64,000 bases of DNA from Boswellia sacra (Eukaryota > Streptophyta > Magnoliopsida > Sapindales > Burseraceae), in contig SNVD02006269.1 of NCBI GenBank assembly GCA_013180625.2, positions 177,523-241,522 on the forward strand. Direction: 5' to 3'. How positions within the stretch are numbered: the first letter of the stretch is position 1; each line of letters opens with the position of its first letter. Below the pieces are notes generated by a model. That model worked only from the letters and a program-made list of their open reading frames with translations, did no database searches and was not told the origin of the DNA. The position numbers were made by a program, and so were the translations under genes. Shown piece by piece: positions 23,905-61,953 of the stretch.

Positions 23905-23908
23905 AACT

Positions 23909-26082: not shown

Positions 26083-27511
26083 TGATAAGTGTCTATTTAT
26101 ATATCATTTTCATATCAATTCGTCCATGTTTCTTTGCTATATTCTTTGGTATTTTTATGTTTTTGTGTGGTTTTTGATGTTTGTAGGAGTTTTGGAGGAA
26201 CTTACACAAAATTGGGGTAAAACCCTTCATTTTCACCTCTGCTAGTCAACCAATTTCTTGGAGTTGATTGTATCGATATACAATTAACCGGATAACATGC
26301 TATATACCATTGAAAAGCTCTCGAAGTCTATTTTCCTGTCTCTTATACACATCTAGATGTGTATAAGAGACAGTACCGAAAGTTGTGATAAAAATGGTAT
26401 GAGAAGTGTATATTTGTAATTCCATATATCACTGTAGCATGTTATTAAATACGGGGCACTGGAGCAAGTTACTGTAGCAGAGTATTTAAACACATTTTAG
26501 GGTTTTATTTTCATAACTTGAAGAGGGGAAAACGTGGGAGGAGGCTGCATTTCTGGATTTCTCTCATCCTTTGGAGTTCTTGAAGGAGAAAGAAGATTTT
26601 GAAAGAGGATGAACTACAATTCCAAGAAGATTCATCTACAAAGAAGATTTTCAAAGAATTTGCTATGTTATTTCTTTCCTTTTCAATTCTGGAATTTCTC
26701 TGTATTGTATTTGTTATTCTGATTGAATATGTGTAACTAAATCTGAATTGGTTGAGGGTGATTTCAAAGCCCTTGATATGGGTATTGTGAGTTGATTGTG
26801 TAAGAAATTGTTATCCATTTCTCTAATTGAAGTTGCTTGTATTTTCCCATATCTAATGCTTATGATTACTTACTGATTGTATTTGGAATGACCAACTGAA
26901 TATAATCTGTTGTTGTCTATTGCTATATTAGAAATCTTGATCCGTAATTATCATGAATTTCCAATCATTAGTAGCAAAATTGTGATCAGAGATTGCAATT
27001 GGAAAATACAACCTAGGTTAATTAATCCGAGCTTGTGTGATTATTGCTTAGATCAACCTATCTTTCTCATCGTAATGCTTCCATTGAATTAAACTTAGAG
27101 AGCTTGTTCTAGGTTGTTTAATGGATAGAGATTAATAAAGAGCTTGTTTTATTTAACAACAAAGTAAGGAAAGATTGGGATAACAGAGCTTGTTGTTATC
27201 TACGGTTGATAACTTCAATGCTGTAATTGGATTACAATTCTATGTTAATTCACAAATTCATATCTTGTGGCAGAGAAAGAACCCTTAACCAAGTGTCTCT
27301 CATTGATCTTTCATTCAAATTAACTTCTGTTTTGTTATTCTGAATTTGCATTCTTATTTCATTTAGTTAATCATTCAACAAAACCCCCCCTGTTTAGTTT
27401 ATTGTTGCTGGAAAATAACAAATTCAATTAGAATCAATCCTCGTGGGAACGATATCTCTTATCACTTTATTACTTGTGCGACTAGTATACTTGCTAGTTT
27501 CGAACGCATCA
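26083..27511 (+). repeat. Athila B 5' LTR
   Basis: 1429 bp, TGATAAGTGTC...GAACGCATCA. Has TATTTAAA (near 26482) as a candidate TATA element. Contains the Tn5-end palindrome. Confidence 0.95.
26336..26373. other. Tn5 mosaic-end palindrome, library adapter artefact
   Basis: CTGTCTCTTATACACATCT followed immediately by its perfect reverse complement, 2 x 19 bp. This is the junction adapter sequence of transposase-based mate-pair libraries. In the 3' LTR of the same element 34 bp (37509-37542) occupy this place. No plant sequence is expected to contain a perfect double mosaic end, so it is a contaminant retained in the assembly. Confidence 0.97.
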
Positions 27512-27516: not shown

Positions 27517-27534
27517 TTGGCGCCGTTGCCGGGA
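27517..27534 (+). promoter_or_regulatory. Athila B primer binding site
   Basis: TTGGCGCCGTTGCCGGGA, tRNA-Asp-type site, one G shorter than in A and G, six bases after the LTR. Confidence 0.88.
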
Positions 27535-27616: not shown

Positions 27617-29162
27617 ATGTCCGAGGGAGAAGGGGATCAGCGACTTAAGAGAATTAAGGAGTTTCTCCAATCCTCGAATTTAAGGCTAAATCGTTCAATT
27701 TCAACTCCACCTCCAGAATTTGACCTTGCACGACATACTTCCCTCCCATCTTCTTGCAGTTCAATCAAATCTGAATCGGAAGCAATGGCGATGGAAAACG
27801 ATCAGACTCTTAAGGAGTTAGCGGCTCCAATTATTGATCAACAACCGATATGCATAAGCACCATTTTTGAGATAGATTTTGAACTTAAATCTGGACTGAT
27901 TCATCTCTTGCCTACATTTCATGGTTTTGCAGGAGAGGATCCGAACAAACACCTCAAAGAATTTCATGTGGTATGCTCAAGTATGAAGCCAACCGGCGTT
28001 TCTGAAGAGCAAATAAAATTGAGAGCTTTCCCATTCTCATTAGCAGATTCGGCAAAAGATTGGCTATACTATCTACCATCATGTACCATTACCACTTGGA
28101 ATGAGATGAGTAAACTCTTTTTGGAGAAATACTTTCCAGCCTCGAAAGTTACAAATATTAGAAAAGATATTAGTGGCATTCGACAACACAATGGAGAATC
28201 ACTTCATGAATATTGTGAGAGATTTAAGAGGTTATGTGCTAGCTGTCCAAACCACCAAATTGGTGATGGACTCCTAATTCAATATTTCTATGAGGGTCTC
28301 CTACCCATGGAAAGGAGTATCATTGATGCTGTTAGTGGTGGAGCACTAGTTAATAAAACACCAAACGTGGCAAGACGTTTGATTAGTGACATGGCAGCGA
28401 ACTCCCAACAATTCAGCAGTCAATTTGAGCCACAACTACCAAAAAGAGTAAATGAGGTAAGTACTTCAAACATTGAACAACAACTTTGTGAACTTCCCTC
28501 TCTTGTAAAAAAAAATGGCTGTAGGACATATGCAGCAATCTTATGCATGTGGAGTATGTTCTGCCATGGACCATCCATCCGGCATGTGTCCAACTTTACA
28601 AGAAGGAGATACAGAACAAGCCAATGCCATGGGTGGATTTCCAGGACAACCAAGGCAAAGGTATGACCCTTTCTCCAATACTTACAATGCTGGATGGAGA
28701 AATCACCCTAATTTAAGATATGGGAATCGTCAACCAATCGCCCCAAATGCCATGCCAAATCGACCACCAGGTTTCAATCAACCAAGGGTGCAGCAACCAT
28801 TTCAAGCACAACCACCACCAATACCAGAACCAGCACCACAACCAGCTCCACAAAATTCAGGTATGTCTCTCCAGGATATTGTTAAAGCACTTGCCACTTA
28901 CACAATGCAATTTCAGCAGGAAACTAGGGCAAGTATCCAAAACCTGGAAAATCAAATGGGACAATTTGCCACTAACATGAGCAAATTTGAGAGTCAAAGC
29001 TCAGGAAAATTACCTTCTCAGCCGGTGATCAATCCAAGAGAGAATGCTAGTGCTGTAACTTTGAGAAGTGGGAAAAAATTAGATATTCCACCAAAGAAAT
29101 CACAAATTGATGAAGGGGATGATACCACTTCTACCATGAACAAACATCCACTTCTAAGGTAA
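27617..29162 (+). pseudogene. Athila Gag
   Basis: ATG at 27617. The retrotransposon Gag core is complete: FELKSGLIHLLPTFHGFAGE, DPNKHLKEFHVVCSSMKP, LRAFPFSLADSAKDWLYYLP, FLEKYFPASKVTNIRKDISG, LLIQYFYEGLLPMERSIIDA. An extra base in the A run at 28506-28514 shifts the frame; the rest (HPSGMCPTLQEGDTEQANAM, a Pro/Gln-rich linker, LENQMGQFATNMSKFE) is read from 28515. A second shift near 29145 ends it. This copy alone in the window retains the core; A, C and G lack it. Gag would package element RNA. Confidence 0.9.
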
Positions 29163-30429: not shown

Positions 30430-31640
30430 AATCCTGAAATTGTTTAGATGGTGGGTGTGATTTATCCAATTTCGGACAGCAGTGGGTGAGTCAGTCCAAG
30501 TTGTTCCGAAGAAATCTGGTGTTACGGTGGTTAAGAATGACAATAATGAGCTAGTTTCCACTCGTATCCAAACCGTGTGGTGAGTTTGTATTGATTATCG
30601 AAAGCTCAATTCTGCAACTCGCAAGGATCACTTTCCTTTGCCATTCAGTGATCAAATGCTGGCGAGATTAGCAGGTCATTCTCATTATTGTTTTCTTGAT
30701 GGCTATTCAGGATATAATCAGTTTGTCATTGCACCTGAGGATCAAGAGAAAACTACATTCACATGCCCATTCGGTACATTTGCCTATCGACGCATGCCAT
30801 TCGGTCTTTGCAATGCCCTGCCACTTTCCAAAGGTGTATGGTAAGTATTTTCTCTGATTATGTTGAGAACATCATTGAGGTATTTATGGATGACTTTAGT
30901 GTTTTTTGGTGATTCTTTTGATAAATGCCTTGACAACCTTACCCTTATACTTCAAAGATGTATAGAAACTAACCTTGTTCTGAATTGGGAGAAATGTCAT
31001 TTATGGTAGATCAGGGTATAGTTTTGGGACATGTTATTTCTGCTAAGGGTATAGAGGTTGATAAATCCAAGATAGATCTTATATGTTCCTTACCACCTCC
31101 CACAAGTGTGCGGGATATTCGTTCGTTTCTTGGTCATGCAGGTTTTTATCGTAGATTCATCAAATATTTCTCGAAGATAGCATTGCCCCTATGCAGATTA
31201 TTACAGAATGATGTGGCCTTTGAATTTGATGAGAAATGCAAAGAGGCATTTGAGAAACTGAAGGAACTCTTGACTTCGGCTCCAGTAATCCAATCTCCGA
31301 ATTGGAATCATCCATTCGAGATCATGTGCGATGCAAGTGACTACGCTGTGGGTGCCGTTTTGGGTCAACGAATTGGCAAAATTCCACATGCCATTTACTA
31401 TGCATCTCGGACTTTAAATGATGCTCAACTTAATTATTCTACCACTGAGAAAGAGCTGCTAGCGGTTATTTTTGCTTTAGAAAAGTTTCGATCTTATTTG
31501 ATTGGTACTAAAGTATCCGTTTATTCTGATCATGCAGCTTTGAGTACTTGCTCACAAAGAAAGATGCTAAACCAAGGCTTATCAGGTGGATACTCCTTTT
31601 ACAGGAGTTTGACTTGGAAATCAAAGACAAGAAGGGAAGT
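30430..31640 (+). pseudogene. Athila reverse transcriptase and RNase H
   Basis: VPKKSGVTVVKNDNNELV (near 30510), IDYRKLNSATRKDHFPLPF, FLDGYSGYNQFVIAPEDQEK, FAYRRMPFGLCNA, a frameshift near 30820, the catalytic FMDDFSVF near 30885, then another shift. 30985-31650 carries GHVISAKGIEVDKSKIDLIC, SFLGHAGFYRRFIKYFSKIA, and RNase H (FEIMCDASDYAVGAVLGQRI, YSTTEKELLAVIFALEKFRS). Three or four single-base lesions stop translation. Ty3/gypsy order RT-RH-IN. Confidence 0.92.
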
Positions 31641-33050
31641 GAAAACTTAGTTGCAGACCATCTCAGTCGCATTGTCCATGATAAGAATGCACTGCCATTA
31701 CAAGAAAGTTTTCCAGATGAACAATTGTTGTCTCTAAATGTAGTAGCCCCTTGGTATGCAGATATTGTCAACTACTTAGTTACCAAAAAGCTACCACATG
31801 ACTTGACTCGAGCTCAAAGAGACAAGATCAAGAACATTGCCAAGTATTACATATGGGATGATCCGTACTTATGGAAGCATTGTTCTGACCAAGTGATAAG
31901 AAGGTGCATTTCTGAATCTGAATTTAATTCAATTTTAACCTTCTGTCATTCTTATGCACGTGGAGGTCATTTCGGACCAAAAAGAACAGCCCTTAAAGTT
32001 CTTGATTGTGGATTCTACTGGCCATCATTGTTCAAAGATGCATATCTGTTCTGCAAAGCTTGTGACCGTTGTCAAAGGACAGGTAATTTAAGTGCCAAAA
32101 ATCAAATGCCACAAACCCCTATACTTATTGTTGAGATTTTTGATGTGTGCGGTATTGATTTCATGGGTCCTTTTTCTTCATCTTTTGGTAATGTTTACAT
32201 TATACTTGCTGTGGATTATGTTTCTAAATGGGTGGAAGCAAAAGCTACGAGAACTAATGATTCTAAAGTTGTTGTAGATTTTGTGAAATCTAACATTTTT
32301 GCGAGATTTGGAACACCAAGAGCCATGATAAGCGATAGAGGGACACACTTCTGCAACCGATCATTTGAAGCCTTGCTCAAGAAATACAACATCACTCACA
32401 AGGTGTCTACTGCATATCATCCACAAACTAGTGGTCAAGTTGAAGTTTCAAATCGAGAAGTCAAGTCCATTCTCGAGAAGACAGTGAATCCGAACCGAAA
32501 AGATTGGAGCCTACGATTGAATGATGCACTTTGGGCATACCGAACTGCTTATAAGACACCTATTGGTATGTCTCCATATAGGTTAGTCTATGGTAAGCCA
32601 TGTCACCTTCCGGTAGAGCTCGAACACAAAGCATGGTGGGCAGTAAAGCTTTGTAACATGGAGATGGATGCTGCTGGAGAACAAAGGAAGCTTCAACTGC
32701 AAGAATTGTAAGAACTTAGAAATGATGCCTATGAGAATTCCAGAATTTACAAGGAGAGAACTAAGGCATTTCGTGATAAAATGATCTCCAGGAAGAATTT
32801 TGAAGTGGGACAGAAAGTTCTTTTATTTCATTCTCGCCTCAAGTTATTTCCAGGTAAATTACGATCTCGATGGGTTGGACCTTTTGTTATTACTAATTTT
32901 TTTCCCCATGGTGCAGTGGAAATCAAGAGCTTAAAAACGGATAAAGTATTCAAGGTGAATGGGCACAGGTTGAAGCCTTACTATGAGAATTCAGTGATGC
33001 AGGACATCGATGAGGTACCTCTCTACGAGCCCACTTATCTTGATGGGTGA
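31548..33050 (+). pseudogene. Athila integrase
   Basis: Open from 31548 to 32711 and again 32781-33050, split by a single TAA at 32709. The zinc-binding HHCC module is near 31948-32075 ([20 protein letters not shown] ... CKACDRCQ). The catalytic DDE triad is present: [12 protein letters not shown] near 32149, [12 protein letters not shown] near 32325, [12 protein letters not shown] near 32435. The C-terminal part ([28 protein letters not shown]) is typical of Athila integrases, without a chromodomain. This is the best-preserved pol domain here. It would join element cDNA to chromosomal DNA. Confidence 0.92.
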
Positions 33051-33399: not shown

Positions 33400-34097
33400 G
33401 TGCTTCAAGTTCAGTTGTGCAACAGCTTGAGGAAACATTCAAACGGAGTTGAAGCCATTGTTCGAAGGTTTGAAACGTGCATATCTGGGAGAAGAACAAA
33501 CTCAATCGCCTTATCGGTAATATCTCTCCTTTTCTTCTCTTCAATGGATGCTGATATCTTTCTATCGAACCTTCGTAAATATTTCCCTTCACTTCCTCAA
33601 AATGATGTGTTTAAAATTTATAAAGTACGGATGACTAGACTTTGGGCATTGATGCTCCTAAATGTGCCTGCTGATTTCCGATGGCTTATCGAAGCCAAGG
33701 TGAGATTGTCCGGTGAGCCGGACATTAATCTCGCAAAATACATGCCTGGTCTAGGAAAGAGCTACTACGCCAAGAGGCGAAGAGCGAAAAGGTTACAAGT
33801 ATGTTATAAATGTGCTAGATGAATTGTAACCAGACTTGTCGTTCATTAGGTTTTGCGTCCAGGAATAGAGAAGATAAACTTTCATTTATTAAGAATGGTT
33901 TAGGTAATGAGTCGCTGGATAATGTTTTGTTAACTCTCGAGTCACATTCTTGTGGACTTGTTCAGCGTGAATTGCTTAATCTATGGACACAATTTCGTGA
34001 TGAATTTCAGTGTTATAGTCTAGGGAATCTGACTAAAAACGACCCTGTTTGCCAGTTTATAAGAAAACTGGAGGGGAAGCAAATCTCCGACTCATAG
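33400..34097 (+). pseudogene. Cargo ORF 1: cysteine-rich, basic, carlavirus-CRP-like protein (frameshifted)
   Basis: The likely start is the ATG at 33544 (MDADIFLSNLRKYF), though the frame is open from 33400. A predicted helical N-terminal part leads to a GKSYYAKRRRAKRL basic stretch and a Cys cluster CYKC...CNQTC, then LSFIKNG. A basic run directly before CX2C, then CNxTCR and a terminal hydrophobic-x-x-Gly segment, is the layout of the nucleic-acid-binding cysteine-rich proteins of carlaviruses and relatives, which act as silencing suppressors or transcription regulators. A one-base loss at about 33821, in the middle of the Cys cluster, creates a stop; the rest reads in the next frame to 34097. 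Homology is inferred from layout only. Confidence 0.6.
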
Positions 34098-34639: not shown

Positions 34640-35291
34640 ATGGAGAAAACACCAATTCGGCGATTCCGCAATATATGCGTATTTTGCGGATCGCCATTTG
34701 GTAAAGATGGAGAGTTTACCACAGCAGCTCTTGATCTTGGTAGGACATTAGCTGCGAGGGGTATTAATTTGATTTATGGAGGGGGTAGGCTTAGGTTAAT
34801 GGGGTGTGTGTCGACAGCTGCATCCTTAGGAGGAAGCAAAGTTCTCGGCATTATCCCTAAACCATTAGCTGTACGAGATATCGTAGGCAACACCATGTGG
34901 GAAGAGTTACAGGTTTCTAGTATGCATGAGCGTATTGCACATATGGTCATTAAATCTGATGCATTTATAGCTTTGCCCGGTGGTTATGGTACATTAGAGG
35001 AGATATTTCAAATCACCTCTTGGGCACAGCTAAAACATCCATCGAAAACCCATTGGTTTGTTAAATGTCAATAATTTTTTTGATGGTTTGTTGTCCTTTC
35101 TTGATCAAGCTGTAGACAAAAATTTCATCTCACCGTCAGCAAGGCAAATGCTGGTTACAGCTTTAACTGCAGGAGAGTTAATTGACAAACTACAAGAATT
35201 CGTCTATTCACCTGATCCAACAATGGCTCAGATAAATTGGTTTGGAGAAGGCAACAAAAGGCGTCAACTGGATTTAACCCTCCATCTGTAA
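34640..35291 (+). pseudogene. LOG: Cargo ORF 2: intronless LOG-like cytokinin-activating enzyme, frameshifted
   Basis: Same gene as the intact copy at 45051-45701. The N-terminal 130 residues are open: NICVFCGS, MHERIAHM and LPGGYGTLEE are present. Differences in conserved positions: GGGSLGFMG of the C copy is GGGRLRLMG here, and NTIGEEL is NTMWEEL; both lie in the nucleotide-binding region. An extra A at 35032-35035 shifts the frame after ITSWAQLK; the remainder (NFFDGLLSFLDQAV ... LDLTLHL) reads in another frame (35058-35291). Plant LOG genes normally have several introns; none is present. Probably non-functional. Confidence 0.88.
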
Positions 35292-37256: not shown

Positions 37257-38680
37257 TGATAAGTGTCTATTTATATATCATTTTCATATCAATTCGTCCA
37301 TGGTTCTTTGCTATATTCCTTGGTATTTTTATGTTTTTGTGTGGTTTTTGATGTTTGTAGGAGTTTTGGAGGAACTTACACCAAATTGGAGTAAAACCCT
37401 TCATTTTCACCTCTGCTAGTCAACCAATTTCTTGGAGTTGATTGTATCGATATACAATTAACCGGATAACATGCTATATACCATTGAAATGCTCTCGAAG
37501 TCTATTTTCTGGAGAAATTTACGGTTCACGAATTTATGTAGTGTACCGAAAGTTGTGATAAAAATGGTATGAGAAGTGTATATTTGTAATTCCATCTATC
37601 ACTGTAGCATGTTATTAAATACGGGGCACTGTAGCAAGTTACTGTAGCAGAGTATTTAAACACATTTTAGGGTTTTATTTTCATAACTTGAAGAGGGGAG
37701 AACGTGGTGGAGGCTTCATTTCTGGATTTCTCTCATCCCTTGGAGTTCTTGAAGGAGAAAGAAGATTTTGAAAGAGGAGGAACTACAATTCCAAGAAGAT
37801 TCATCTACAAAGAAGATTTTCAAAGAATTTACTAATTCTTTCTTTCCTTTTCAATTCTGGAATTTCTCTATATTGTATTTGTTATTCTGATTGAATATGT
37901 GTAACTAAATCTGAATTGGTTGGGGTGATTTCAAAGCCCTTGATATGGATTTTGTGAGTTGATTGTGTAAGAAATTGTTATCCAATTCTCTAATTGAAGT
38001 TGCTTGTATTTTCCCATATCTAATGCTTCTGATTGCTTACTGATTGTATTTGGAATGGCCAACTGAATATAATCTGTTGTTGTCTATTGCTAGATTAGAA
38101 ATCTTGATCCGTAATTGTCATGAATTTCCAATCATTAGTAGCAAAATTGTGATCAGAGATTGCAATTGGACAATACAACCTAGGTTAAATAATCCGAACT
38201 TGTGTGATTATTGCTTAGATCAACCTATCTTTCTCATCGTAATGCTTCTATTGAATTAAACTTAGAGAGCTTGTTCTAGGTTGTTTAATGGATAGAGATT
38301 AAATAAAAAGCTTGTTTTTTTTAACAACAAAGTAAGGAAAGATTGGGATAACAGAGCTTGTTGTTATCTACGGTTGATAACTTCACTGCTGTAATTGGAT
38401 TACAATTCTATGTTAATTCACAAATTCATATCTTGTGGCAGAGAAAGAACCCTTAACCAAGTGTCTCTCATTGATCTTTCATTCAAATTAACTTCTGTTT
38501 TGTAATTCTAAATTTGCATTCTTATTTCATTTAGTTAATCATTCAACAAAACCCCCCCTGTTTAGTTTATCGTTGTTGGAAAATAATGAATTCAATTAGA
38601 ATCAATCCTCGTGGGAACGATATCTACTTATCACTTTATTACTTGTGCGACTAGTATACTTGCTAGTTTTGAACGCATCA
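37257..38680 (+). repeat. Athila B 3' LTR
   Basis: 1424 bp; retains the 34 bp missing from the 5' LTR at the adapter site. Confidence 0.95.
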
Positions 38681-39849: not shown

Positions 39850-39914
39850 ATGAGCTTAGAGGTTTGCGTAGCACGCTCGGTGCGGTACTTGACCCACTTG
39901 CACCGCAAGTTGAT
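39850..39914 (-). repeat. Host Gypsy 5' LTR, proximal fragment
   Basis: The last 65 bp of the LTR as read on the minus strand. Athila C splits the LTR; the rest lies at 49091-49554. Confidence 0.7.
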
Positions 39915-41330
39915 TGAAAAAAATAAGTGTCTATTTATATAGCATTTTCATATCAATTCGTCCATGTTTCTTTGCTATATTCCTTGGTATTTTTATGTTT
40001 TTGTGTGGTTTTGATGTTTGTAGGAGTTTTTGGAGCAACTTGCACAAAAATGGAGTAAAACCCTTCATTTTCACCTCTGCTAGTCAACCATCTCTCGGAT
40101 TTAATTGTATTGATATACAATGAACCCGATGACATATCATATACCGTTGAAAAGCTCTCGAAGTCTACTTTTTGGAGAACTTTACGGTTTATGAATCCAT
40201 TCAGTGTACCGAAAGTTGTAATCAAAACAGTGTGAGAAGTGTAGAAATGTAATTCCACACATCACTGTAGCATGTATAATACGGTACACTGTAGCACGTT
40301 ACTGTAGCAGAGTATTTAAACACATTTTAAGGTTTTATTTTCATAACTTGAAGAGGGGAGAACGTGGTGGAGGCTTCAGCTCTGGAATTCTTTCATCTCT
40401 TGGAGTTCTGAAGGAGAAAGGAAGCTTGGAAAGAGGAAGAACTACAATCCAAAGAGAATTACATCAAATTTGATTAGTTTTTCCCTTCCCTTTCATTTTC
40501 TGGAATGTCTCCATGTTGTATTGTATTTACCACGTTCTTAAACATGTGTAACTGAATCTGAATTGGTTGAGGGTGATTTCAAAGCCCCTGATATTGTTTT
40601 TGTAAGTTGATTGTGTAAGGAATTGTTATACAATTCTCTAATTGAAGTTGCTTGTATTCTCCCATATTTAATGCTTATGATTGCTTGCTGATTGTACTTG
40701 AGTGGCCAACTGAATATAATCTGGTTGTAATTTATTGCTAAACTAGAAATCTTGATCCGTAATTGTCTTGAATTTCTAATCATTAGTAGCAAAATTGTGA
40801 ACAGAGATTACACTTGGAGAATATAACCTAAGTTAAATAATCCGAGCTTGTGTGTTTATTGCTTAGATCAACCTATCTTTCTTATCATAATGCATCCATT
40901 GAATTAAACTCAGAGAGCTTGTTCTAGGTTGTTTAATGGATAGAGATTAAATAAAGATCTTGTTTTATTTAACAACAAAGTAAGGAAAGATTGGGGTAAT
41001 AGAGCTTGTTATTATCTACGGTTGTAACTTCAATGCTGTAATTAGATGACAATTCTATAATTAATTCGCAAATCCAAATCTTGTGGTAGAGAAGGATCCC
41101 TTAACCAGCTTTCTCCCATTGATTTTTCATTCAAATTTACTTTCTGTTTTGTTATTCTTTACTTGCATTCATATTTCATTTAGTAAAGCATTCAACAAAA
41201 ATCCCCCCCTGTTTAGTTTATTGTTGCTGGAAATAACAAATTCAAATAGAATCAATCCTCGTGGGAACGATATCGACTTATCACTTTATTACTTGTGCGA
41301 CTAGTATACTTGCTAGTTTCGAACGCATCA
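39915..41330 (+). repeat. Athila C 5' LTR
   Basis: 1416 bp. C type throughout, including the distinctive AGGAAGCTTGGAAAGAGGAAG segment in the second part. Confidence 0.9.
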
Positions 41331-41353: not shown

Positions 41354-41445
41354 ATTGATTTTCTAATCGATTTGTTATTTTGTTTTCATTGTTGATTCAT
41401 ATTTTTGTTTGTTTTTTTTTTTTTTATTGTTTGTGTTTAGCCAAC

Positions 41446-42948
41446 ATGGCAGTAAACTTCCATCAATTCAGTAGCGGATTTGAGCCACAAGTACCATGGA
41501 GAGTAAATGAGGTAAGCACTCCGAACATTGAACAACAACTTTCTGAGCTAACCTCTCTTGTGGAAAACATGGCTGTAGGAGATATGCAAAAATCTTATGA
41601 CTGTGGGATATATTCTACGATGGAGCATCCAATCGACATGTATCCAACTTTACAAGAAGAATATATGGAACAAGCCAATGCCATGGGTGGATTTCCAGGA
41701 CAAACGAGGCAATTGTATGATCCTTTCTCTAGCACTTACAATGCTGGATGGGAAGATCAACATAATTTCAGTTACTGGAATCATCAACCAATCACTCCAA
41801 ATGTGATACCAAATCGGCCCCAAAGTTTCAATCAACCTAGAGTGCAGCAACCATTTCAAATGCAACCACCACCAATGCCACATCCAGCACCGCAACCAGC
41901 TTCGCAAAACTCAGGTATGTCTCTCGGAGATATTGTTAATGCACTTGCCACTAACACAATGCAATTCCAGCAGGAAACTGGGGCAAATATCCAAAACCTG
42001 ACAAATCAAATGGGACAATTGGCCACTAGCATGAGCAAATTTGAGGGCCAAAGCTCAGAAGAATTATCTTGTCAAACGGTGATCAATCCAAGAGAGAATT
42101 CTTGTGCGATAACTTTGCAAAATGGAGAGCAATTAGATGTCCTACCAAAGAAATCACAAACTGATAAAGGAGATGACACCACTTCCACCATGAACAAAAC
42201 ACTGACTTCTCAGGTAAATCCTATAACTCCCATTCCTTCATATGTTTCTCCTCCACTTTTTCCTATTAGATTTGCAAAATCGAAGGAGGAACAAGAACAA
42301 GAAATCCTGGAAACTTCTCACAAAATCGAGGTAAATGTACCACTTCTGGATTTTATCGAGCAAGTACCTCGTTATACAAAATGTCTCAAGGAGTTATGCA
42401 CCAGCAAGAGAAAGTTAAAAGGGAATGAGAAAGTAAGTGTGGGGGAAAATGTTTCAGCTGTATTGCAAAGAAAAATTCCTCCGAAATGCAAAGATCCAGG
42501 TACGCTCACCATTCTATGCACCATTGATAATACCAAGTTTGAAAGAGCTACGTTAGATTTAGAAGCATTTATTAACATCATGCCATATTCTATTTATGCT
42601 TCTTTAAATCTTGGACCTTTTGAGGAAACTGATATTACCATTCAACTTACCAAAAGTGTTGTGGAAGATGTGCTTTTGCAGGTGAATCAATTGGTTTTCT
42701 CAGCAGACTTCTATGTCCTTAAAATAGAGGATGAGACATCTCCTAATCCAACACCGATTCTTTTAGGGAGGCCATTCTCGCAAACTGCTAGAATCAAGAT
42801 TGATGTTCATTATGGCACTTTGACCATAGAGTTTGATGGCAAGGTGATATGTTTTATTATTTTTGAGGAAATGAGGTACTCTAATGACTTACATTCTGTT
42901 TTTGCAGTTGACGTTATTGATTATTTGCCACAACAATGTTTTGAGTAA
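41446..42948 (+). CDS. Athila C residual gag-protease ORF (core-deleted), 500 aa
   Basis: An uninterrupted frame from MAVNFHQFSSGFEPQVPWRV. This ATG corresponds to an internal Met of the full Gag in B (MAANSQQFSSQFEPQL), so the complete Gag core is missing by deletion. Remaining parts: HPIDMYPTLQEEYMEQANAM, a Pro/Gln-rich linker, NQMGQLATSMSKFEGQ, KCLKELCTSKRKLKGNEKVS, protease-like LDLEAFINIMPYSIYASLNL and ILLGRPFSQTARIKIDVHYG. The protease motif is DLEAF rather than DLGAS, so activity is doubtful. A frame of 500 codons surviving in a defective element is notable; whether it is selected is untested. Confidence 0.7.
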   Translation: MAVNFHQFSSGFEPQVPWRVNEVSTPNIEQQLSELTSLVENMAVGDMQKSYDCGIYSTMEHPIDMYPTLQEEYMEQANAMGGFPGQTRQLYDPFSSTYNAGWEDQHNFSYWNHQPITPNVIPNRPQSFNQPRVQQPFQMQPPPMPHPAPQPASQNSGMSLGDIVNALATNTMQFQQETGANIQNLTNQMGQLATSMSKFEGQSSEELSCQTVINPRENSCAITLQNGEQLDVLPKKSQTDKGDDTTSTMNKTLTSQVNPITPIPSYVSPPLFPIRFAKSKEEQEQEILETSHKIEVNVPLLDFIEQVPRYTKCLKELCTSKRKLKGNEKVSVGENVSAVLQRKIPPKCKDPGTLTILCTIDNTKFERATLDLEAFINIMPYSIYASLNLGPFEETDITIQLTKSVVEDVLLQVNQLVFSADFYVLKIEDETSPNPTPILLGRPFSQTARIKIDVHYGTLTIEFDGKVICFIIFEEMRYSNDLHSVFAVDVIDYLPQQCFE

Positions 42949-43647
42949 ACTCGCAAGAATGGAGTGGATGTTGCTATGTGGAACACATAAGATTATAGAA
43001 GTTTCAAAGACCAAGAAAGCTGATACAAGTGTCTAAAGAGTAGATGAAGCTGTGACAAGCTTGGCTGAGACTATAGCTATCACCACAAATAGGTATGATG
43101 TTTCGTACATTGAATTGCCTTTATCTAATGAGAAACTTCTTCCTTCTGTGATGAAAGCCAATACCTTGGAGCTTAAGTCACTTCCATATCATTTGAATTA
43201 TGGATTCTTGGGTGAGAATGATACTTTGCGAGTTACAATGGAAATGGGCCTTGCATGAATACAAGAAGATAAACTCGTCCGAATACTTACAGATCACAAA
43301 ATAGCTATTGAGTGGACAATTGTTGAAATCCAAGGCCCATCCATATGCATTGACCGTATCTTGTTAGAAGAGGGATCCAAGCCCATTAGAGAGGCACAAC
43401 AGAAATTGGATCCTTCCATGATGGAACCAACGTCGGGCTGAGGACGTTAAACCAAGCGCTTATTGGGAGGCAACCCAATGTTTTTGAAAAATAAAAGAAA
43501 AGAAGAAAAGAAAAATAAAATGAGGTAATAATGATCGATTTTTGTGTCTCGAGAAGATTCCTTTCGTAGGCCATCAAATTGATCAGGTTTATCTCTCTTT
43601 GCCATCTGTCTTATTTGTTTTTATATTTTTTACTTGTTTTTTGACTT
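42949..43647 (+). other. Athila C pol deletion scar and spacer
   Basis: Residual protease-distal sequence (NRYDVSYIELPLSNEKLLPS in 43052-43258), the deletion joint near 43426, and the post-integrase spacer with GGCTGAGGACGTTAAACC. No RT, RNase H or integrase remains. Confidence 0.85.
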
Positions 43648-44438
43648 TTGTTTGCTATTATGTTGTTATCTCTTTTATGTGTCTTTAGTTTCGTTTCAGC
43701 TCTTTTCTTTTCCTTTCTTTTGTTTAATTTGATTACTCTGTGCTTTGAGCTCATTTGTGCAGCAGCTTGTGGAAACATCCAAACGGAAGTTGAAGTCTTT
43801 CGCCAAAGGTTTGAAATGTGCATATCTTGGAGAAAAACAAACCCGATCGCATTATCGGTAATATCTCTTCTTTTCTCCTCTTCAATTGATGCCGATATCT
43901 TTCTGTCGAACCTTCGTAAATATTTCCCTTCACTTCCTCAAAATGCTGTGTTTAAAATTTATAAAGTACGGATGACTAGACTTTGGGCATTGATGCTCCT
44001 AAATGTGCCTGCTGATATCCGATGTCTTATCGAAGCCAAGGTGAGATTGTCCGGTGAGCCGGACATTAATCTCGAAAAATTCATGCCTGGTCTAGGAAAG
44101 AGCTACTACGCCAAGAGGCGAAGAGCGAAAAGGTTACAAGTATGTTATAAATGTGCTAGATGGAATTGTAACCAGATTTGTCGTTCATTAGGTTTTGCGT
44201 CCAGGAATAGAGAAGATAAACTTTCATTTATTAAGAATGGTTTGAGTAATGAGTCGCTGGATAATGTTTTATTAACTCTTGAGTCACATTCTTGCGGACT
44301 TGTTCAGCGTGATTGCTTAATCTATGGACACAATTTCGTGATGAATTGCAGTGTTATAGTCTAGGGAATCTGACTAAAAACGACCCTATTTGCCAGTTTA
44401 TAAGAAAACTAGATGGGAAGCAAATCCCCGACTCATAG
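43648..44438 (+). pseudogene. Cargo ORF 1 in C: cysteine-rich, carlavirus-CRP-like protein
   Basis: Nearly identical to the B copy. Here the Cys-cluster region is unbroken (GKSYYAKRRRAKRLQVCYKC, then NCNQICRSLG), but a one-base loss at about 44312 shifts the last part, and translation in the open frame ends at 44364 instead of 44438. The ATG used in B is ATT here, so translation would need an upstream Met (43648 or the Met in RFEMCISW). Each copy therefore has one frameshift, at different positions, so the ancestral ORF was longer than either. Localisation would be nuclear or RNA-associated if the family resemblance holds. Confidence 0.6.
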
Positions 44439-45050: not shown

Positions 45051-45701
45051 ATGGAGAAAACACCAATTCGGCGATTCCGCAATATATGCGTATTTTGCGG
45101 ATCGCAATTTGGTAAAGATGGAGAGTTAACCACAGCAGCTCTTGATCTTGGTAGGACATTAGCTGCGAGGGGTATTAATTTGATTTATGGAGGGGGTAGT
45201 CTTGGGTTTATGGGGTGTGTGTCTACAGCTGCATCCCTAGGAGGGAGCAAAGTTCTCGGCATTATCCCTAAACCATTAGCTGTACGAGATATCGTAGGCA
45301 ACACAATCGGGGAAGAGTTACAGGTCTCGAGTATGCATGAGCGTATTGCACATATGGTTGTTAAGTCCGATGCATTTATAGCTTTGCCGGGTGGTTATGG
45401 TACATTAGAGGAGATATTTCAAATCACCTCTTGGGCACAGCTAAACATCCATCTGAAACCCATTGGTTTGTTAAATGTTAATAACTTTTTCGATGGTTTG
45501 TTATCCTTTCTTGATCAAGCTGTAGAAAAAAACTTCATCTCACCGTCAGCGAGGCAAATCCTTGTCACAGCTTCAACAGCAGGGGAGTTAACTGACAAAC
45601 TACAAGAATTCGTCTATTCGCCTGATCCAACAACAGCTCGGATTGATTGGTTTGGAGAAGGCAATAAGAGGCGGAAACTTGATTTAACACTCCATCTGTA
45701 A
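45051..45701 (+). CDS. LOG: Intronless LOG-like cytokinin riboside 5'-monophosphate phosphoribohydrolase, intact
   Basis: 216 residues, the usual LOG length (about 210-220). LOG enzymes remove ribose 5-phosphate from cytokinin nucleotides to give active free bases in the cytosol. Visible: CVFCGS at 13-18, YGGGSLGFMG at 46-55, MHERIAHM at 95-102 with the conserved Arg98, and LPGGYGTLEE at 112-121 with Glu121 of the family PGGxGTxxE motif. The usual Lys after that Arg (MHxRK) is Ile here. WAQLNIHLKPIGLLNVNNFF and FISPSARQILV follow. The C-terminus is KLDLTLHL, an LxLxL pattern like the EAR repression motif. No intron, unlike host LOG genes, so the source was probably a cDNA. It lies inside Athila C between the cargo promoter and the 3' UTR. 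Confidence 0.92.
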   Translation: MEKTPIRRFRNICVFCGSQFGKDGELTTAALDLGRTLAARGINLIYGGGSLGFMGCVSTAASLGGSKVLGIIPKPLAVRDIVGNTIGEELQVSSMHERIAHMVVKSDAFIALPGGYGTLEEIFQITSWAQLNIHLKPIGLLNVNNFFDGLLSFLDQAVEKNFISPSARQILVTASTAGELTDKLQEFVYSPDPTTARIDWFGEGNKRRKLDLTLHL

Positions 45702-47682: not shown

Positions 47683-49090
47683 TGATAAGTGTCTATTTAT
47701 ATATCATTTTCATATCAATTCGTCCATGTTTCTTTGCTATATGCCTTGGTATTTTTATGTTTTTGTGTGGTTTTGATGTTTGTAGGAGTTTTGGAGCAAC
47801 TTGCACAAAAATGGAGTAAAACCCTTCATTTTCACCTCTGCTAGTCAACCATCTTCTCGGATTTAATTGTATGATATACAATGAATCTGATGACATATCA
47901 TATACCGTTGAAAAGCTCTCGAAGTCTACTTTTTGGAGAAATTTACGGTTTATGAATCCATTCAGGGTACCGAAAGTTGTAATCAAAACAGTGTAAGAAG
48001 TGTAGAAATGTAATTCCACACATCACTGTAGCATGTATAATACGGGACACTGTATCATGTTACTGTAGCAGAGTATTTAAACACATTTTAGGGTTTTATT
48101 TTCATAACTTGAAGAGGGGAGAACGTGGAGGAGGCTGCAACTCTGGAATTCTTTCATCTATTGGAGTTCTTGAAGGAGAAAGGAAGCTTGGAAAGAGGAA
48201 GAACTACAATCCAAAGAGAATTACATCAATTTGCTAAGTTTTTCCCTTCCCTTTCATTTTCTGGAATGTCTCCATGTTGTATTGTATTTACCACGTTCTT
48301 AAACATGTGTAACTGAATCTGAATTGGTTGAGGGTGATTTCAAAGCCCTTGATATGGTTTTCGTGAGTTGATTGTGCAAGATATTGTTATCCAATTCTCT
48401 AATTGAAGTTACTTGTATTCTCCATATTTAATGCTTATGATTACTTGCTGATTGTATTTGGGTGGCCAACTGAATAAAATCTGGATATTGTCTATTGCTA
48501 GATTAGAAATCTTGATCCGTAATTGTCTTGAATTTCTAATCATTAGTATCAAAATTGTGATCAGAGATTACAATTGGAGAATATAACCTAAGTTAAATAA
48601 TCCGAGCTTGTGTGTTTATTGCTTAGATCAACCTATCTTTCTTATCATAATGCATCATTGAATTAAACTCAGAGAGCTTGTTCTAGGTTGTTTAATGGAT
48701 AGAGATTAAATAAAGAGCTTGTTTTATTTAACAACAAAGTAGGAAAGATTGGGATAACAGAGCTTGTTGTTATCTACGGTTGATAACTTCAATGCTGTAA
48801 TTAGATGACAATTCTACAATTAATTCGCAAATCCATATCTTGTGGTAGAGAAGGATCCCTTAACCAGCTTTCTCCTATTGATTTTTCATTCAAATTTACT
48901 TTCTGTTTTGTTATTCTTTATTTGCATTCTTATTTCATTTAGTAAAGCATTCAACAAAAATCCCCCCCTGTTTAGTTTATTGTTGCTGGAAATAACAAAT
49001 TCAATTAGAATCACTCCTCGTGGGAACGATATCTTACTTATCACTTTATTACTTGTGCGACTAGTATACTTGCTAGTTTCGAACGCCTCG
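47683..49090 (+). repeat. Athila C 3' LTR
   Basis: 1408 bp, TGATAAGTGTC start, preceded by the polypurine tract 47669-47682. Differs from its 5' LTR by more sites than the B pair does, so C looks older than B. Confidence 0.92.
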
Positions 49091-49554
49091 TTGATCAGTA
49101 GCTTGATGCTAATCTTCTCGCTCATGAGAAGAGAGGATCGTTGAGCCGAAGAGCCTGTAGGCAAAGAAGAGAAGAGATGGAGACAAGAATTGCTAAGCAA
49201 AAGAGGTTTGTATTATACTAGAGAACTCTTTACAATGCTTGGATTTGTGTGGATTTGTGGATGATTTTCAAATGAGACTTGGAGGGGTTTATATGGTGAA
49301 CCACCTCTTAAATGAATAGCTAAGATCTAATGAATCTAAGGGTCCTAATTCATTCTTATCTACTAAATTATCTAGATATGTACAAGAGAGTATTATCTAC
49401 TAAATTATCTAGATAAATACAAGAGATAATTCTAGAAGCTTATCTTGCTAGAGAATTCTAGAAGATGGGCTTGGGCTTTGGCTTTCTAGAAGCTAGGCCA
49501 AGCCTCTAGGCATATTTGGGCCACTCTAACAAGTAAATTGGGCGAGTCATAACA
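49091..49554 (-). repeat. Host Gypsy 5' LTR, distal fragment
   Basis: On the minus strand it begins TGTTATGACTCGCCC and includes a TATA-like CATATAAACCCC near 49290. Joined to 39850-39914 after removing Athila C and one TTGAT it makes one LTR of about 524 bp. The other LTR of this element is not in the window. Confidence 0.75.
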
Positions 49555-50297
49555 TTAGGCTTTATTTAATGCTTAGAAGTATGTTTAGGAGTTTTGTGAA
49601 TTGTTTAACCCTTTGTTTGTTTTGTGAGGTGAAAATACGTGTCAAGGTAAGTCTACTTTCCTTTCTTTATTAGAATCATGATTAAGAATTTATTTCTTCG
49701 CAAATGCTTTGAGTCATGCTTAAGAGCACATTCTAGAATCATGCTTAAGAGCACATGAATAGAATCATGCTAGGAAAACTTATGATTGCTTTGAAGTATG
49801 GTAGAAAATAGCATAGAATAGGTGTGAATGACCGTAATTGCCCCTCCAATCTTGGATTGAGCTAGAACAGCCATGTTTTGATGTGATTGCCATGATTAGG
49901 CTAGAAATGCCATGGTTTATCACAATAACAATGTTTAGGCTAGAAGTGCCGTGATTTCTTATAAATTGATATGAATTATGCTAGAATGGCAATAGGTAGA
50001 ATTACCGTGAGAGAATTATCAAATATAGGTCGAAGTGTCATGATTCTAGATTATGGCTTTGTATTGAATTTTAATTGATCAATTTATTATGTATGTATGA
50101 ATATGCCATGAGTATATGATGATTATAATGATGCCATAAAGTGATGGTGGACTCACAATGATGGTAAGAGACCATTACTTATTATGATCATTGAATGTAT
50201 GCTTGAAGAGGCTTGATAAATATTGAATAGACTCACATATAGTATTGAGGAATTCTACCTTATAAAAACTAACATATGACTTTGATCAATTAAAATG
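49555..50297. other. Unassigned DNA with degenerate 40-bp repeats
   Basis: No ORF. About four degenerate units with a GCTAGAA-x-TGCCATG core at 49861, 49900, 49939 and 49980 (period 39-41 bp). Upstream, ATCATGCTTAAGAGCACAT is repeated near 49710-49760. Confidence 0.5.
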
Positions 50298-52107
50298 TGC
50301 TTGTCTACATTAGTGGAGAGTGACTTAAAAATGTAGGCCTATAGAGTTCATTTATGCGCACATCTTCACTATTAAATATGATTCATTTTTATGTATAAAA
50401 TCATCCAGGTTACAAGTGATTAGGTGAGAATGGCTCTACACACGCACATTTGAGGAATTAAAGTGAATTGGAACTAATCTTTGAAGTGAAATTCTTGATC
50501 AAGTGCATAATTTTAAAGTTTTCGTTGGGTTATAATTATGTACAATCTTTGAGGCCTATTTGCAAGTTGAAGCATTTGTGTGTCTTAAATTTTTTTTTCT
50601 TTGATTCTATTTAGATTTAGTTTTGTTTTCATTATCGTTTTAGTTGCTCGAGGACTAGCAAAGTCTAAGTGTGGGAGAATTTGATAGGTGTCTATTTAGA
50701 TATTATTTTCATATCAATTTGTCTATCTTTTTTTGCTATATTCCTTGGTATTTTTATGTATTTGTGTGGTTTTGATGTGTGTAGGAGTTTTGGAGGAACT
50801 CACACTAACTTGGAGTAAAACCCTTCAATTTTACCTCTGCTAGTCAACCAACTTCTCAGATTTAATGTATTGATATACAATGAACCAGATGATGTGCTAT
50901 ATACCATTGGAAAGCTCTAGAAGTCTATTTTCGAGAGAAATTTATGGTTCATGAATCCATTCAGTGTACCAAAAGTTATGATCAAAATGGTGCGAGTAGT
51001 GCAGAATTATAATTTTACAAATCACTGTAGCATGTTATTATTCGGTAGCAGGTTACTATAGCAGAGTATATAAACATATTTTAGGGTTTTATTTTGATGA
51101 GAAGAAGAAAGGAGGAGAACGAGTTGGAGGTTGTCTCTCTTGATTTCTCTCATCTCTTAGAGTTCTTGAAGGAGAAAGAGGGGCTTGAAAAGAGGAGGAA
51201 CTACAATCTTAAGGAGATTCATCTACAGAGGAGATTTTCAAGAGATTTGCCAAGTGTTTCCTTTCCTTTTCATTTTATGGAATGTCTCTATATTGTATTG
51301 TATTTATGACTTGTTTGAACATGCATAACTAAATCTGATTTGGTTGGGGGTGATTTCAAAGCCTAGATATGGTTTTTGTGAGATAATTGTTCAAGAAATT
51401 GTTATCCGACTCTCTAATTGAAGTTGTTTGTATTTTTCCATATTCAATGCTTATGATTGCTTGCTAACTTTATTTGGGTGGCCAATTAAATAGAATCTGG
51501 TTGTTGTCTATTGCTAGAGTAGAAATCTTGATCTGTAATTGTCTTGAATTTCTAGTCGTTAGTAGCAAAATTGTGATCGAAGATTGCAATTGAAAAATAT
51601 AACCTAAGTTAAATAATCCAAACTTGTGTGTTTATTGCCTAGATCAACCTATCTTTCTTATCGTCATGCTTCCATTGAATTAAATTTAGAGAGCTTGTTC
51701 TAGGTTCTTTAACGGATAGAGATTAAATAAAGAACTTGTTTTATTTAACGACAAAGTAAGAAAGATTGGGTTAACACAACTTATTGTTATCTACGGTTGA
51801 TAATTTTAATGTTGCAATTAGATGACAATTCTATGGTTAATTCGCAAATTCATATTTTGTGGCAGAGAATGGTCCCTTAACCAAGTTTCTCTTAATGATT
51901 ATTTCTCACTTCATTTAACTTTGCGTTATGTTATTCTTCATTTGCCTTCGTATTTTGTGTACTTATACATTCAACAGAACCCCCCATTTAGTTTATTGTT
52001 GCTATCTAATAACAAATTTAATTAGAACCAATCATTGTGGGAACGATATTTTACTTATCACTTTATTACTTGTGCGACTAGTATACTTGTTAATTTCGAA
52101 CGCATCA
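50298..52107 (+). mobile_element. Athila-like element D, 3' end only
   Basis: Begins abruptly in the Athila 3' UTR (TCTACATTAGTGGAGAGTGAC, as at B 36890), then polypurine tract (50668-50681) and an LTR from 50682 to 52107 (TGATAGGTGTC...CGAACGCATCA). It is more diverged than A, B, C or G and so the oldest copy here. No coding region remains. Confidence 0.88.
50682..52107 (+). repeat. Athila D LTR
   Basis: 1426 bp, diverged from the other Athila LTRs but collinear. Confidence 0.9.
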
Positions 52108-52585
52108 AGCGATGCACGGGCTGTTCAGCACCACAAATGATACGTGTACCACTCTAATCATCATAAGAAAACCGCGATCAACATAGATATGCACATATAA
52201 GGTGTTTTTATTGCATAGGTTGGTTTAAAACTCGCAAAATGCGCTAAAACACATTAAATCGCGTAACGACGCACAGGCCGTTTGGCACCACATATGACAC
52301 GTGCACCACTTCAGTTATCGTAGAAACACTTGGTTCTCTTGAAAACGCTGGTAAATGGCCTTTTTGTTGTGCAGTTTGATTCAAGACTTGCAAAATGCGC
52401 TAAAACGCATAAAATGGAGTTAAATCGAGTAATGGTGCACGGGCTGTTTGACGGCACAAACAACATGTGTACTACTCCGGTTATCATAAAAACATATCGA
52501 TTAGTGTAGAAAACAACAAAGAAGGTGTTTTTATTGAGTATTCTGGTTTAGAACTCACCAAATTTATAAAATACTAACACAGATG
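52108..52585 (+). repeat. Satellite-like tandem array, left part
   Basis: About three monomers, starts marked by GCACGGGCTGTTT-like sequence at 52114, 52271 and 52437 (spacing 157 and 166 bp). Each includes GGTGTTTTTATTGCATA and CGCAAAATGCGCTAAAA. Interrupted at 52585 by LTR element E. Confidence 0.75.
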
Positions 52586-53357
52586 GGTTACAATGCATGG
52601 GTCTATTGGTCAATTCAGAGGAAGTGCAAATTGTTACAATGATCAAGAGTGCACATGAACCAGAATGAGGGACAATTTCAAACAGAACTGGTACTAATGT
52701 GGAAAGAATTAATTTTCAGGATTTATATCCATACAAGTTCTTGAAGTCAGCTTTCTAGCACATTTTATGGTGTGTCATTTGGAGTTCTCTACAGAAAGTT
52801 ATGAATATTTCTTCATTGCTAGTTCGTAATTAATGCAGTATTAAACTTACTCGGGAATTTGAGTTTTCTAACTTAGTTATTTGTGCTTTTATTATCTATT
52901 GAGTCTTTTTATAAGTCTTAGTCATTAATTTAGTGGTCAATGTATTAATTAAGCTGTAATTATTATTGAGACCATAAGAACACATTTAATTATTGTCTTT
53001 TACCTATGGTTGGAGGGTTATTCCAAGTTATTTAAGTCCTAAAGCTGTGTATTCAAGGAGAAGCTCGTTTAATTCTAATTTTAATGAAATTTCAGTCTTT
53101 GTACTGATTTCTCTTTAACTCTGTATCTCTTGGTGGATTCCATAGAGTGGTGAGTTAGTTTGAGCCCTGTATCCTTTGTTTACATTATTGGGTGGTGAAT
53201 TCTATGTATCCCATTGGTATTTACTTCGGTGGTGAGCTTGTTATCCTTTGAAAGAGTGTTTGTTCGATTCCATTTTGTTTGCTCCGGCCATTGGTTGCGT
53301 TGTTTATCAACTTGAAGATCCTATCCTGATTTGTTACAATTCAGCAGCCCGGCATCA
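52586..53357 (+). repeat. 5' LTR of element E
   Basis: 772 bp, ends CCCGGCATCA. The first base is mutated (GGTTACAATG versus TGTTACAATG in the 3' LTR). Confidence 0.88.
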
Positions 53358-53384
53358 GATTTTGGTATCAGAGCTTTTGGTTCA

Positions 53385-53940
53385 ATGGCTGGTCGTACTC
53401 GCAAGGCTGCTTCTATTAGTCAACCGCCTCCTCCTCAAAGAGACGAATAGGATTTGATCATTGAAGATCTTAGGCGGCAGATCCAACAACTCCAACAACG
53501 TTTAGTAATTATGGAAAATAAAAAATGCATAGGTGGAACGTATGGAGAAGTGGAAGATCAAAGTCCTTTGGACAATTATTATGATAATGATGTCACTAAC
53601 AATGATGAATCGATGGAGAAAGATGAAGAAGAGCATGACTTCTTTGAAGATCATGGAAAACCACCAATATTTGATGACTTTTATGGGTTGCCAAATATTA
53701 ACAAAGATGTGACTAAAACCTATTCAAGCAGAGAACAACATTGTTCAAACATAGACTTTGTTGTTGGACATCATGAAGAAGCTAACGATTTTCATTCCTT
53801 GCTACATAACTTAATGCTTCATGAGTTTGTTGCAAGCTATTGAAGTGATTGGATGAGTATTGTCACAAGAATTGGCAAGTACAAAATTCTTCATTCTCAT
53901 CCTTGGAAGTTCCATGCTAGTTTACCACAGTTAAGGTGTG
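53385..53940 (+). pseudogene. Truncated Gypsy Gag N-terminus of element E
   Basis: ATG 53385 reads MAGRTRKAASISQPPPPQRD, stop at 53448, then an open frame 53454-53843: a coiled-coil-like DLRRQIQQLQQRLVIMENKK followed by an acidic region and EEHDFFEDHGKPPIFDDFYG. It stops at 53843. The Gag core, zinc knuckle and all of pol are missing. Confidence 0.7.
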
Positions 53941-54015
53941 TTAAAGGATGTTCTCGGCTTACCAAAATTTGAGGACGAATTTTTCTTTCTCAACCAGAGG
54001 AGCTTGACACGGGAG

Positions 54016-54788
54016 TGTTACAATGCATGGGTCTGTTGGTCAATTCAAAGGAAGTGCAAATTGTTACAATGATCAAGAGTGCACATGAACCAGAATGAAG
54101 GGCAATTTCGTAAAAGAACTGGTACTAATGTAAAAAGAATTAATTTTCAGGATTTATGTCCATAAAAGTTATTGAAGTCAGCTTTCTAGCACATTTTACG
54201 GTATGTCATTTAGAGTTCTCTATAGAAAGTTATGAATATTTCTTCACAGCTTGTTCGTAATTAATGCATTATTAAGCTTACTTAGGAATTGGAGTTTTCT
54301 AGCTTAGTTATTCGCGCTTTTATTATCTATTGAATCTATTTATGAGTCTTAGTCATTAATTTAGTAGTCAATATATTAATTAAGCTGTAATTATTATTGG
54401 GACCATAATAACACATTTGATTATTATCTTTTACCTGTGCTTGGAGGGTTGTTCCAAGTTATTTAAGTCCTAAAGTTGTGTATTCAAGGAGAAGCTTGTT
54501 TAATTCTAATTTTAATGAAATTTCAGTCTTTATACTGATTTCTCTTTAACTCTATATCTCTTGGTGGATTCCATAGAGTGGTGAGTTAGTTTGAGCCCTG
54601 TATCCTTTGTTTACATCATTGGGTGATGAATTCTGTGTATCCCATTAGTGTTTACTTTGGTGGTAAGCTTGTTATCCTTTGAAAGAGTGTTTGTTGGGTT
54701 CCATTTTGTTTGTTCTGGCCATTGGTTGAGTTGTTTATCAACTTGAAGATCCTATCCTGATTTGTTACAATTTCGTAACCCAGCATCA
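54016..54788 (+). repeat. 3' LTR of element E
   Basis: 773 bp, preceded by the purine-rich AGGAGCTTGACACGGGAG. Confidence 0.88.
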
Positions 54789-55912: not shown

Positions 55913-55970
55913 CTCTCTTATCAAGCTCCCCTCGTTGAGAAAGACTCGACCTCGAGTCTTAGTTGTTGTT

Positions 55971-61948: not shown

Positions 61949-61953
61949 AGTTT

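Follow-up and report, generated by a model that had tools for sequence, protein, structure and literature searches.

Why does an intact gene of the LOG family lie inside a plant retrotransposon, and whom does it serve? The question is raised by a 64,000-nucleotide stretch of Boswellia sacra DNA (hereafter the window), in which two LTR elements, B and C, both hold a LOG-type sequence ahead of the 3′ LTR (Table 1). Ordinary plant LOG genes contain introns. The original prediction, made from the letters of the window, was that a LOG cDNA had been captured by an Athila ancestor and spread with it, giving a mobile element the means to raise local cytokinin.

Table 1. Coordinates of the features of elements B and C within the window
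Feature	Coordinates	Strand	Basis or remark
Element B 5′ LTR	26083..27511	+	TSD GGCAA 26078-26082
Element B putative primer-binding site TGGCGCCGTTGCCGGG	27518..27533	+	sequence
Element B gag (Retrotrans_gag)	27617..28666	+	PF03732 E 2.3e-19
Element B pol fragments: ORFs for RNase H and integrase, which C does not have	30985..32711	+	PF17919, PF17917, PF17921, PF00665
Element B NABP core, broken: frameshift after CxxC motif	33547..33965	+	
Element B LOG copy, broken by +1 frameshift	34640..35291	+	comparison with element C LOG
Element B 3′ LTR	37257..38680	+	TSD GGCAA 38681-38685
Element C 5′ LTR	39915..41330	+	TSD TTGAT 39910-39914
Element C ORF homologous to the end of B gag (C-terminus) and protease-like part, without capsid and without a Pfam match	41446..42948	+	
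Element C NABP: open frame matching Viral_NABP and Carla_C4, of the cysteine-rich nucleic-acid-binding type; conserved core 43888-44307	43648..44364	+	PF05515 E 1.6e-9, PF01623 E 2.1e-5
Element C intact LOG-family ORF, 216 codons	45051..45701	+	profile, structure and ORF evidence
LOG ORF C-terminal tail ..KRRKLDLTLHL, disordered: basic stretch and EAR-like LxLxL	45660..45698	+	residues 204-216 pLDDT <50
Element C 3′ LTR	47683..49090	+	TSD TTGAT 49091-49095

Results

The LOG gene and the elements that carry it

The LOG frame of element C runs uninterrupted from ATG to TAA over 216 codons and contains all of the motifs that had been read in it (CVFCGS, YGGGSLGFMG, MHER, and PGGYGTLEE). Its product matches PF03641 (E 1.9e-38; 132 bits, cut-off 27) and TIGR00730 (E 8e-51; 172 bits, cut-off 96), and its best relative of solved structure is Arabidopsis LOG3 (PDB 2a33, E 3e-67). 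The AlphaFold2 model, computed from 52 aligned sequences, has a mean pLDDT of 88 and superposes on 2a33 at 0.6 Å rmsd over 178 columns. A complete LOG-family ORF is thus borne out, and the choice between LOG and another lysine-decarboxylase-like family falls to LOG. Against the NCBIfam cytokinin equivalog CtkRMPhLog, the protein scores below the cut-off (118 versus 300).

Element borders were taken from self-comparison of the window and inspection of LTR ends and TSDs, and the predicted TSDs of both elements were found at their LTR-fixed borders. A run of A is present at the start of the 5′ LTR of C; the 3′ LTR ends in CTCG in C and in ATCA in B. K2P distances between LTRs are 0.043 within B and 0.041 within C, as against 0.118–0.132 between B and C. 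Because the between-element distance is so much greater than the within-element distance, B and C must have inserted independently and belong to different lineages; their age may be about 1.6 My, a figure that applies an assumed rate to the LTR distance.

Element B has the features of Ty3/gypsy elements, with gag, RNase H, and integrase in gypsy order between its LTRs and a 5-bp TSD, and its putative primer-binding site is one we take to be complementary to tRNA-Asp. The Pfam scan of element B ORFs gave no match to reverse transcriptase. For both elements the label Athila is an assumption taken over from the original prediction. The Athila lineage (OTA Ty3/gypsy elements with env-like ORFs after pol) shares with these elements the extra ORFs in sense orientation that follow pol and precede the 3′ LTR, the 5-bp TSD, and the lack of a second RNase H in B: in one damaged copy, the B ORF at 31548-32711, the Pfam scan found no additional RNase H (aRH) between RNase H and integrase, and absence of aRH is given as an Athila criterion (PMC6317226). 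They differ from it in having NABP and LOG in that place and no match to Athila ORF-1 (PF03078), for which the 20 ORFs scanned, of 22 in the window with at least 150 aa, gave none; ORF-1 is reported in 16% of Athila elements and is not obligatory (PMC6317226).

LOG had been placed between gag/pol and the 3′ LTR. This holds for B; in C the gene is preceded only by a remnant of the gag C-terminus and protease-like region. Positions 41444-43426 of C correspond to 28389-30414 of B, after which the alignment jumps to 33059 of B, so that C is without the gag capsid part and without the stretch of B (~30414-33059) that holds RNase H and integrase. Element C could therefore move only with help. The prediction that the same gene sits at the same place in B is right as to position, but it left unmentioned that the B copy is broken, with an altered GGGSLGFM motif besides the frameshift.

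Other parts of the window hold further repeats. Two more family copies, at 60524-64000 and 22469-25342 (minus), have the 5′ organization of C and are likewise without the gag capsid part; the capsid-deleted elements may constitute a separate, helper-dependent subfamily. A remnant of another copy, comprising an LTR and ~0.4 kb of internal 3′ sequence, lies at 50296-52109, and adjoining ~770-base units form direct (92%) and inverted (~86%) repeats at 52587-55944. Copia-type gag and reverse transcriptase pieces and another minus-strand gypsy-type gag/integrase occupy 1283-3632, 11180-14420, and 21888-22538, and 56439-57077 and 59162-59788 (minus).

A virus-type neighbor and a family of copies

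The original prediction overlooked a virus-type gene beside LOG. In element C this frame scores 38.5 bits against Viral_NABP (gathering score 23); it has lost the start codon of its relatives, and its C-terminal end is frameshifted. NABP is thus broken in both elements of the window, and an open 184-codon frame is present in 13 of 45 fetched host copies. At E 1e-3 or better the frame has 154 relatives, commonly of 182 aa; hosts named among the best 120, which were listed, include Populus, Xanthoceras, Acer, Orobanche, and Striga. Individually, 42 of 43 aligned relatives match Viral_NABP (E 1e-3), and cysteines C85, C88, C93, and C97 are invariant across all 43. Carlavirus, allexivirus, and mandarivirus CRPs (Viral_NABP, Carla_C4) likewise have a Cys motif preceded by a basic stretch; the element protein differs from them in its length (~182 aa) and in being retrotransposon-borne. 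A search for PDB relatives of the frame gave none at E 1 or better, and tblastn confirmed no relative of either LOG or NABP among viral contigs. The structure model of NABP is poor (pLDDT 61). Its best match to viral folds is not significant (E 0.077), the top named matches being mostly flexivirus CRPs, and we discarded the fold comparison as evidence because of the quality of the model.

Both genes belong to a large family. The host genome (638.6 Mb) holds at least 150 full-length LOG copies with 94–100% identity to the LOG protein, 9 of the 150 having an internal stop; the figure is a lower bound, since the best candidates were scored and a LOG3 search adds further places. Of 40 stretches fetched around well-scoring LOG copies, and hence selected by their LOG match, 39 carry NABP upstream of LOG in the same orientation, often in two or three pieces and therefore broken, with its start usually ~1.15 kb ahead of LOG. 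An LTR match of >200 bases lies downstream of LOG in 37 of the 40, usually ~2.6 kb past the LOG start. The search of the host genome that the prediction called for thus upholds its central claim, that LOG is carried and spread by an Athila-like retrotransposon. Judged from these sequences, LOG is one half of a pair with a flexivirus-type NABP upstream, a conserved two-gene module between pol and the 3′ LTR.

The same pairing occurs in another plant: three gene models of Orobanche gracilis (P0197, P0208, and P0214) each join NABP and LOG in one model, and P0197 was rechecked with Pfam. Element-type LOG relatives and the NABP family are both found in Populus and Xanthoceras. Populus, Xanthoceras, and Acer are rosids; Orobanche and Striga are lamiids. 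Protein clusters among the listed rows reach 327 members for LOG and 566 for NABP, as expected of transposon genes. From the neighbor gene and the copy numbers, rather than from their DNA, we infer that the relatives in other genomes are retrotransposon-borne. Separately, sequences of 8723, 2128, 2425, 4511, and 21,981,555 bases (the last from Xanthoceras) recur in the LOG and NABP lists, a hint of linkage but not proof.

A quick tree of 64 rows gathers the element-type LOGs into one clade relative to the canonical LOGs sampled (SH-aLRT 96); because two long bacterial rows set its root, the date of capture can be given just as "old." A recent local capture of a LOG cDNA, one way of reading the original prediction, is not what this one old clade indicates, nor what the recurrence of the same neighbor gene family in Populus, Xanthoceras, and Orobanche indicates. 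At the base of the clade branch P0028 and P0048, which keep K99 and have no LxLxL tail. Six rows from Xanthoceras and metagenomes (P0028, P0032, P0039, P0048, P0049, and P0067) have the canonical pocket Lys without the tail, and this group is perhaps the ancestral form.

Pocket and tail of the LOG protein

The element LOG shares with AtLOG3 (2a33) and AtLOG8 (1ydh) the fold, the catalytic Arg and Glu, and PGGxGTxxE. It differs from plant LOGs in the replacement of a pocket Lys and Glu and in a basic LxLxL tail, and the identity of element-type LOGs to eight aligned canonical LOGs is 44–50%, or 51–57% over the aligned core. For CgLOG, Arg99 and Glu122 are the proposed catalytic residues and Met96, His97, Lys100, Glu125, and Trp129 the proposed prenyl site, and alanine changes of AMP-binding residues, Ser19 excepted, are reported nearly to abolish activity (PMC4979012). 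The window LOG keeps R98, E121, M95, H96, and W128 and has I99 and Q124 at the equivalents of CgLOG Lys100 and Glu125. It thus departs from the cytokinin-specific prenyl-site set (Met, His, Lys, Glu, and Trp) at Lys and Glu.

These replacements are not peculiar to one copy. Ile99 and Gln124 are present in all 45 gapless host copies, in which the Met (44), His (45), and Trp (45) are kept together with catalytic R98 (44) and E121 (45) and PGGxGTxxE. Among the best 120 of 7,579 matches, the relatives listed, K99 is kept in 14, replaced in 105, and unaligned in 1, and E124 is kept in 13 and replaced in 107; the prenyl-site His is kept in 54, R98 in 114, T118 in 117, E120 in 116, and E121 in 117. 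None of these catalytic and pocket residues varies among the canonical plant LOGs listed for comparison, which are the best 120 of 7,992 matches gathered with LOG3 and LOG8 as the only queries. The original prediction took the product to be active cytokinin, as for LOG in general; with two proposed prenyl/adenine-pocket residues replaced, a plain cytokinin product is doubtful.

Also overlooked was the EAR-like tail. LxLxL occurs within the last 14 residues of 93 of the 120 listed relatives and of none of the 120 listed canonical LOGs; it is a short motif, present in an average of 1.9 of 120 shuffled proteins. It is found in all 45 gapless host copies and in 24 of 33 representatives at 75% identity, and is absent from the last 14 residues of the other 9 representatives and of 27 of the 120 relatives. 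A looser pattern, a basic pair ahead of the terminal motif, takes in 95 of the 120. Of the 14 listed relatives that keep K99, 12 have no tail. LxLxL is one of two consensus forms of the EAR motif (PMC6283911, PMC9956375).

Selection on the module

Between B and C, 34 of the 46 LOG differences fall at third positions and dN/dS is 0.17 (p 6e-9), with out-of-frame controls at 1.39 and 1.75; here and below, codons reading as stop in either copy were dropped from dN/dS counts. NABP gives a B–C dN/dS of 0.32 from 13 differences (p 0.045). For the gag-remnant ORF the values are 0.51 between C and B (p 2e-5) and 0.69 and 0.74 between C and copies D and E, neither of the latter significant; constraint on this frame appears weaker than on LOG, or none. 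The synonymous difference between B and C is just 0.07 over the NABP cores and 0.22 over LOG (intervals as in Table 1), suggesting recombination within the family, with mosaic members as its outcome.

The host copies tell the same story at larger scale. Of 48 places examined, 3 were not gapless and were dropped; the LOG frame is fully open in 41 of the remaining 45. Mean distance among these is 0.020, 0.013, and 0.086 at codon positions 1, 2, and 3, and that of 300 downstream noncoding bases, 0.073, is near the third-position value. Variants common to two or more copies comprise 10 nonsynonymous and 51 synonymous changes; among singletons, 70 are nonsynonymous, including 3 stops, and 59 synonymous (p 7e-7; single-base codon differences, codons with more than one difference dropped). 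Pooled pN/pS is 0.12, a value biased low since the fetched copies were selected by protein score, which lowers pN; the B–C pair and the contrast of shared with singleton variants depend less on that choice. Because shared variants are mostly synonymous and singletons are not, we conclude that selection acts as the lineage replicates and slackens in individual insertions, a pattern that a LOG protein serving the element would produce. The LOG–NABP module is almost certainly selected for the element, and the LOG gene, staying open in well over a hundred copies, probably helps it.

Discussion

With a probability of roughly 0.6, proposed protein roles included, we favor an old, amplified Athila-like family whose NABP–LOG accessory module acts on the host cell. 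Both proteins would be synthesized wherever the element is active, NABP conceivably from a spliced transcript, and would act on the host cell in which it replicates. The CRP-like protein would bind RNA or DNA and counter silencing or reprogram transcription, like its viral relatives: viral CRPs are reported as silencing suppressors, and one of them, CVB p12, is described as a hyperplasia-inducing transcription factor (PMC12172455). By analogy with these, an anti-silencing role for NABP has about an even chance. The LOG-type enzyme would hydrolyze a nucleotide 5′-monophosphate, either the precursor of a cytokinin or some modified nucleotide related to one. That it is active on some nucleotide seems likely; cytokinin as its product is conceivable, though we lean slightly against it. 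The tail would bring the enzyme to the nucleus and to TOPLESS-type co-repressors, and we put forward a working EAR-like tail just as tentatively.

It is useful to set this reading against its rivals, the nearest of which is the plain cytokinin-activating cargo first proposed, with active cytokinin made from iPRMP promoting division of the cells where the element transposes. The LOG fold and catalytic residues are kept, the window copy also retains three of the residues proposed to form the prenyl site (M95, H96, and W128), and hyperplasia is what CVB p12, a viral relative of NABP, induces (PMC12172455). Yet K99 and E124 have given way to Ile and Gln in every gapless copy and are replaced in most of the listed relatives, canonical LOGs as listed never vary there, and the alanine changes in AMP-binding residues were nearly abolishing (PMC4979012), all of which makes this cargo unlikely. 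The changed pocket could also mean that the LOG fold is a scaffold or decoy, a catalytically weak nucleotide binder in which the EAR-like tail, through TOPLESS recruitment, is the working part. The tail is indeed conserved, and disordered in the model, but retention of R98, T118, E120, and E121 in nearly all of the best 120 listed relatives favors catalysis, and we think a decoy improbable. More ambitious than either is a cassette for immune evasion and cell reprogramming, in which the CRP would counter RNA silencing while a re-specialized LOG with a TOPLESS-recruiting tail would destroy a non-cytokinin nucleotide, either an N6-modified AMP or a plant-immunity nucleotide signal. Such a "LOG without cytokinin" would have been molded and retained by the transposon lineage from early eudicot history onward; we count it an outside chance.

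Two further explanations deny the element any use of the gene. Plant LTR retrotransposons are known to capture genes, Bs1 and others among them (PMC7264820), and a host LOG cDNA captured once might have been copied as a passive hitchhiker. Strong purifying selection in the replicating lineage speaks against this, as do the same neighbor beside LOG in Orobanche and the presence of both families in Populus and Xanthoceras; the B–C dN/dS and the contrast of shared with singleton variants led us to reject passive cargo, which we regard as highly improbable. Still less credible is that the host duplicated the segment, or that a tandem family of host genes just happens to have LTRs nearby. The LOG copies of B and C are 10.4 kb apart, and the surrounding 1.47 kb are 93% alike, but the TSDs of the two elements differ, LTR distances between the elements are about three times those within each, and the arrangement of NABP upstream and LTR downstream recurs in nearly all of the 40 stretches from other places. 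LTR distances and TSDs lead us to reject duplication for B and C, and these distances, together with the copy number, support the view that LOG moved with the element.

The cargo is not the wholly new kind that had been proposed. A YgdH/LOG domain has been published in LTR-retrotransposon (Ty3/gypsy) consensuses of Citrus sinensis, C. clementina, and Populus trichocarpa (PMC9289625, citing Steinbauerova et al. 2011), which resemble the present elements in having a LOG/YgdH-type domain within an LTR retrotransposon. As given in that article, the account runs to two sentences and contains no neighbor gene, pocket, tail, selection, or copy analysis, and the words carla, NABP, and silencing suppressor are absent from its main text. 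The same source describes orchid Ty3/gypsy elements that also recruited a host-type enzyme as an extra ORF; there the enzyme is an m6A demethylase and the range two Phalaenopsis species, whereas the NABP–LOG module is older and wider. In the open-licence literature searched, we found no NABP–LOG pair on a retrotransposon in print. LOG in retrotransposons is therefore known, and as far as that literature goes the two-gene module, the changes of pocket and tail, and the element-level selection are new.

Extra ORFs are reported to be common in plant retrotransposons, with proteins that are mostly divergent and of unknown function (PMC6317226). Here the accessory ORF is an enzyme of known fold, under measurable element-level selection, present in at least 150 full-length copies, and with a regular virus-type partner. 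What a plant retrotransposon gains from an accessory gene thereby becomes a directly testable question, one in which transposons, the silencing suppressors of plant viruses, and the metabolism of hormones or nucleotides come together. The annotation of host genes is touched as well. Two Populus entries annotated as LOGL10, P0050 and P0064, are of the element type by their tail, and P0050 falls inside the clade; these may be transposon genes counted as host genes. Catalogues of LOG genes in such genomes, Populus "LOGL10" being an example, may thus include genes that belong to transposons.
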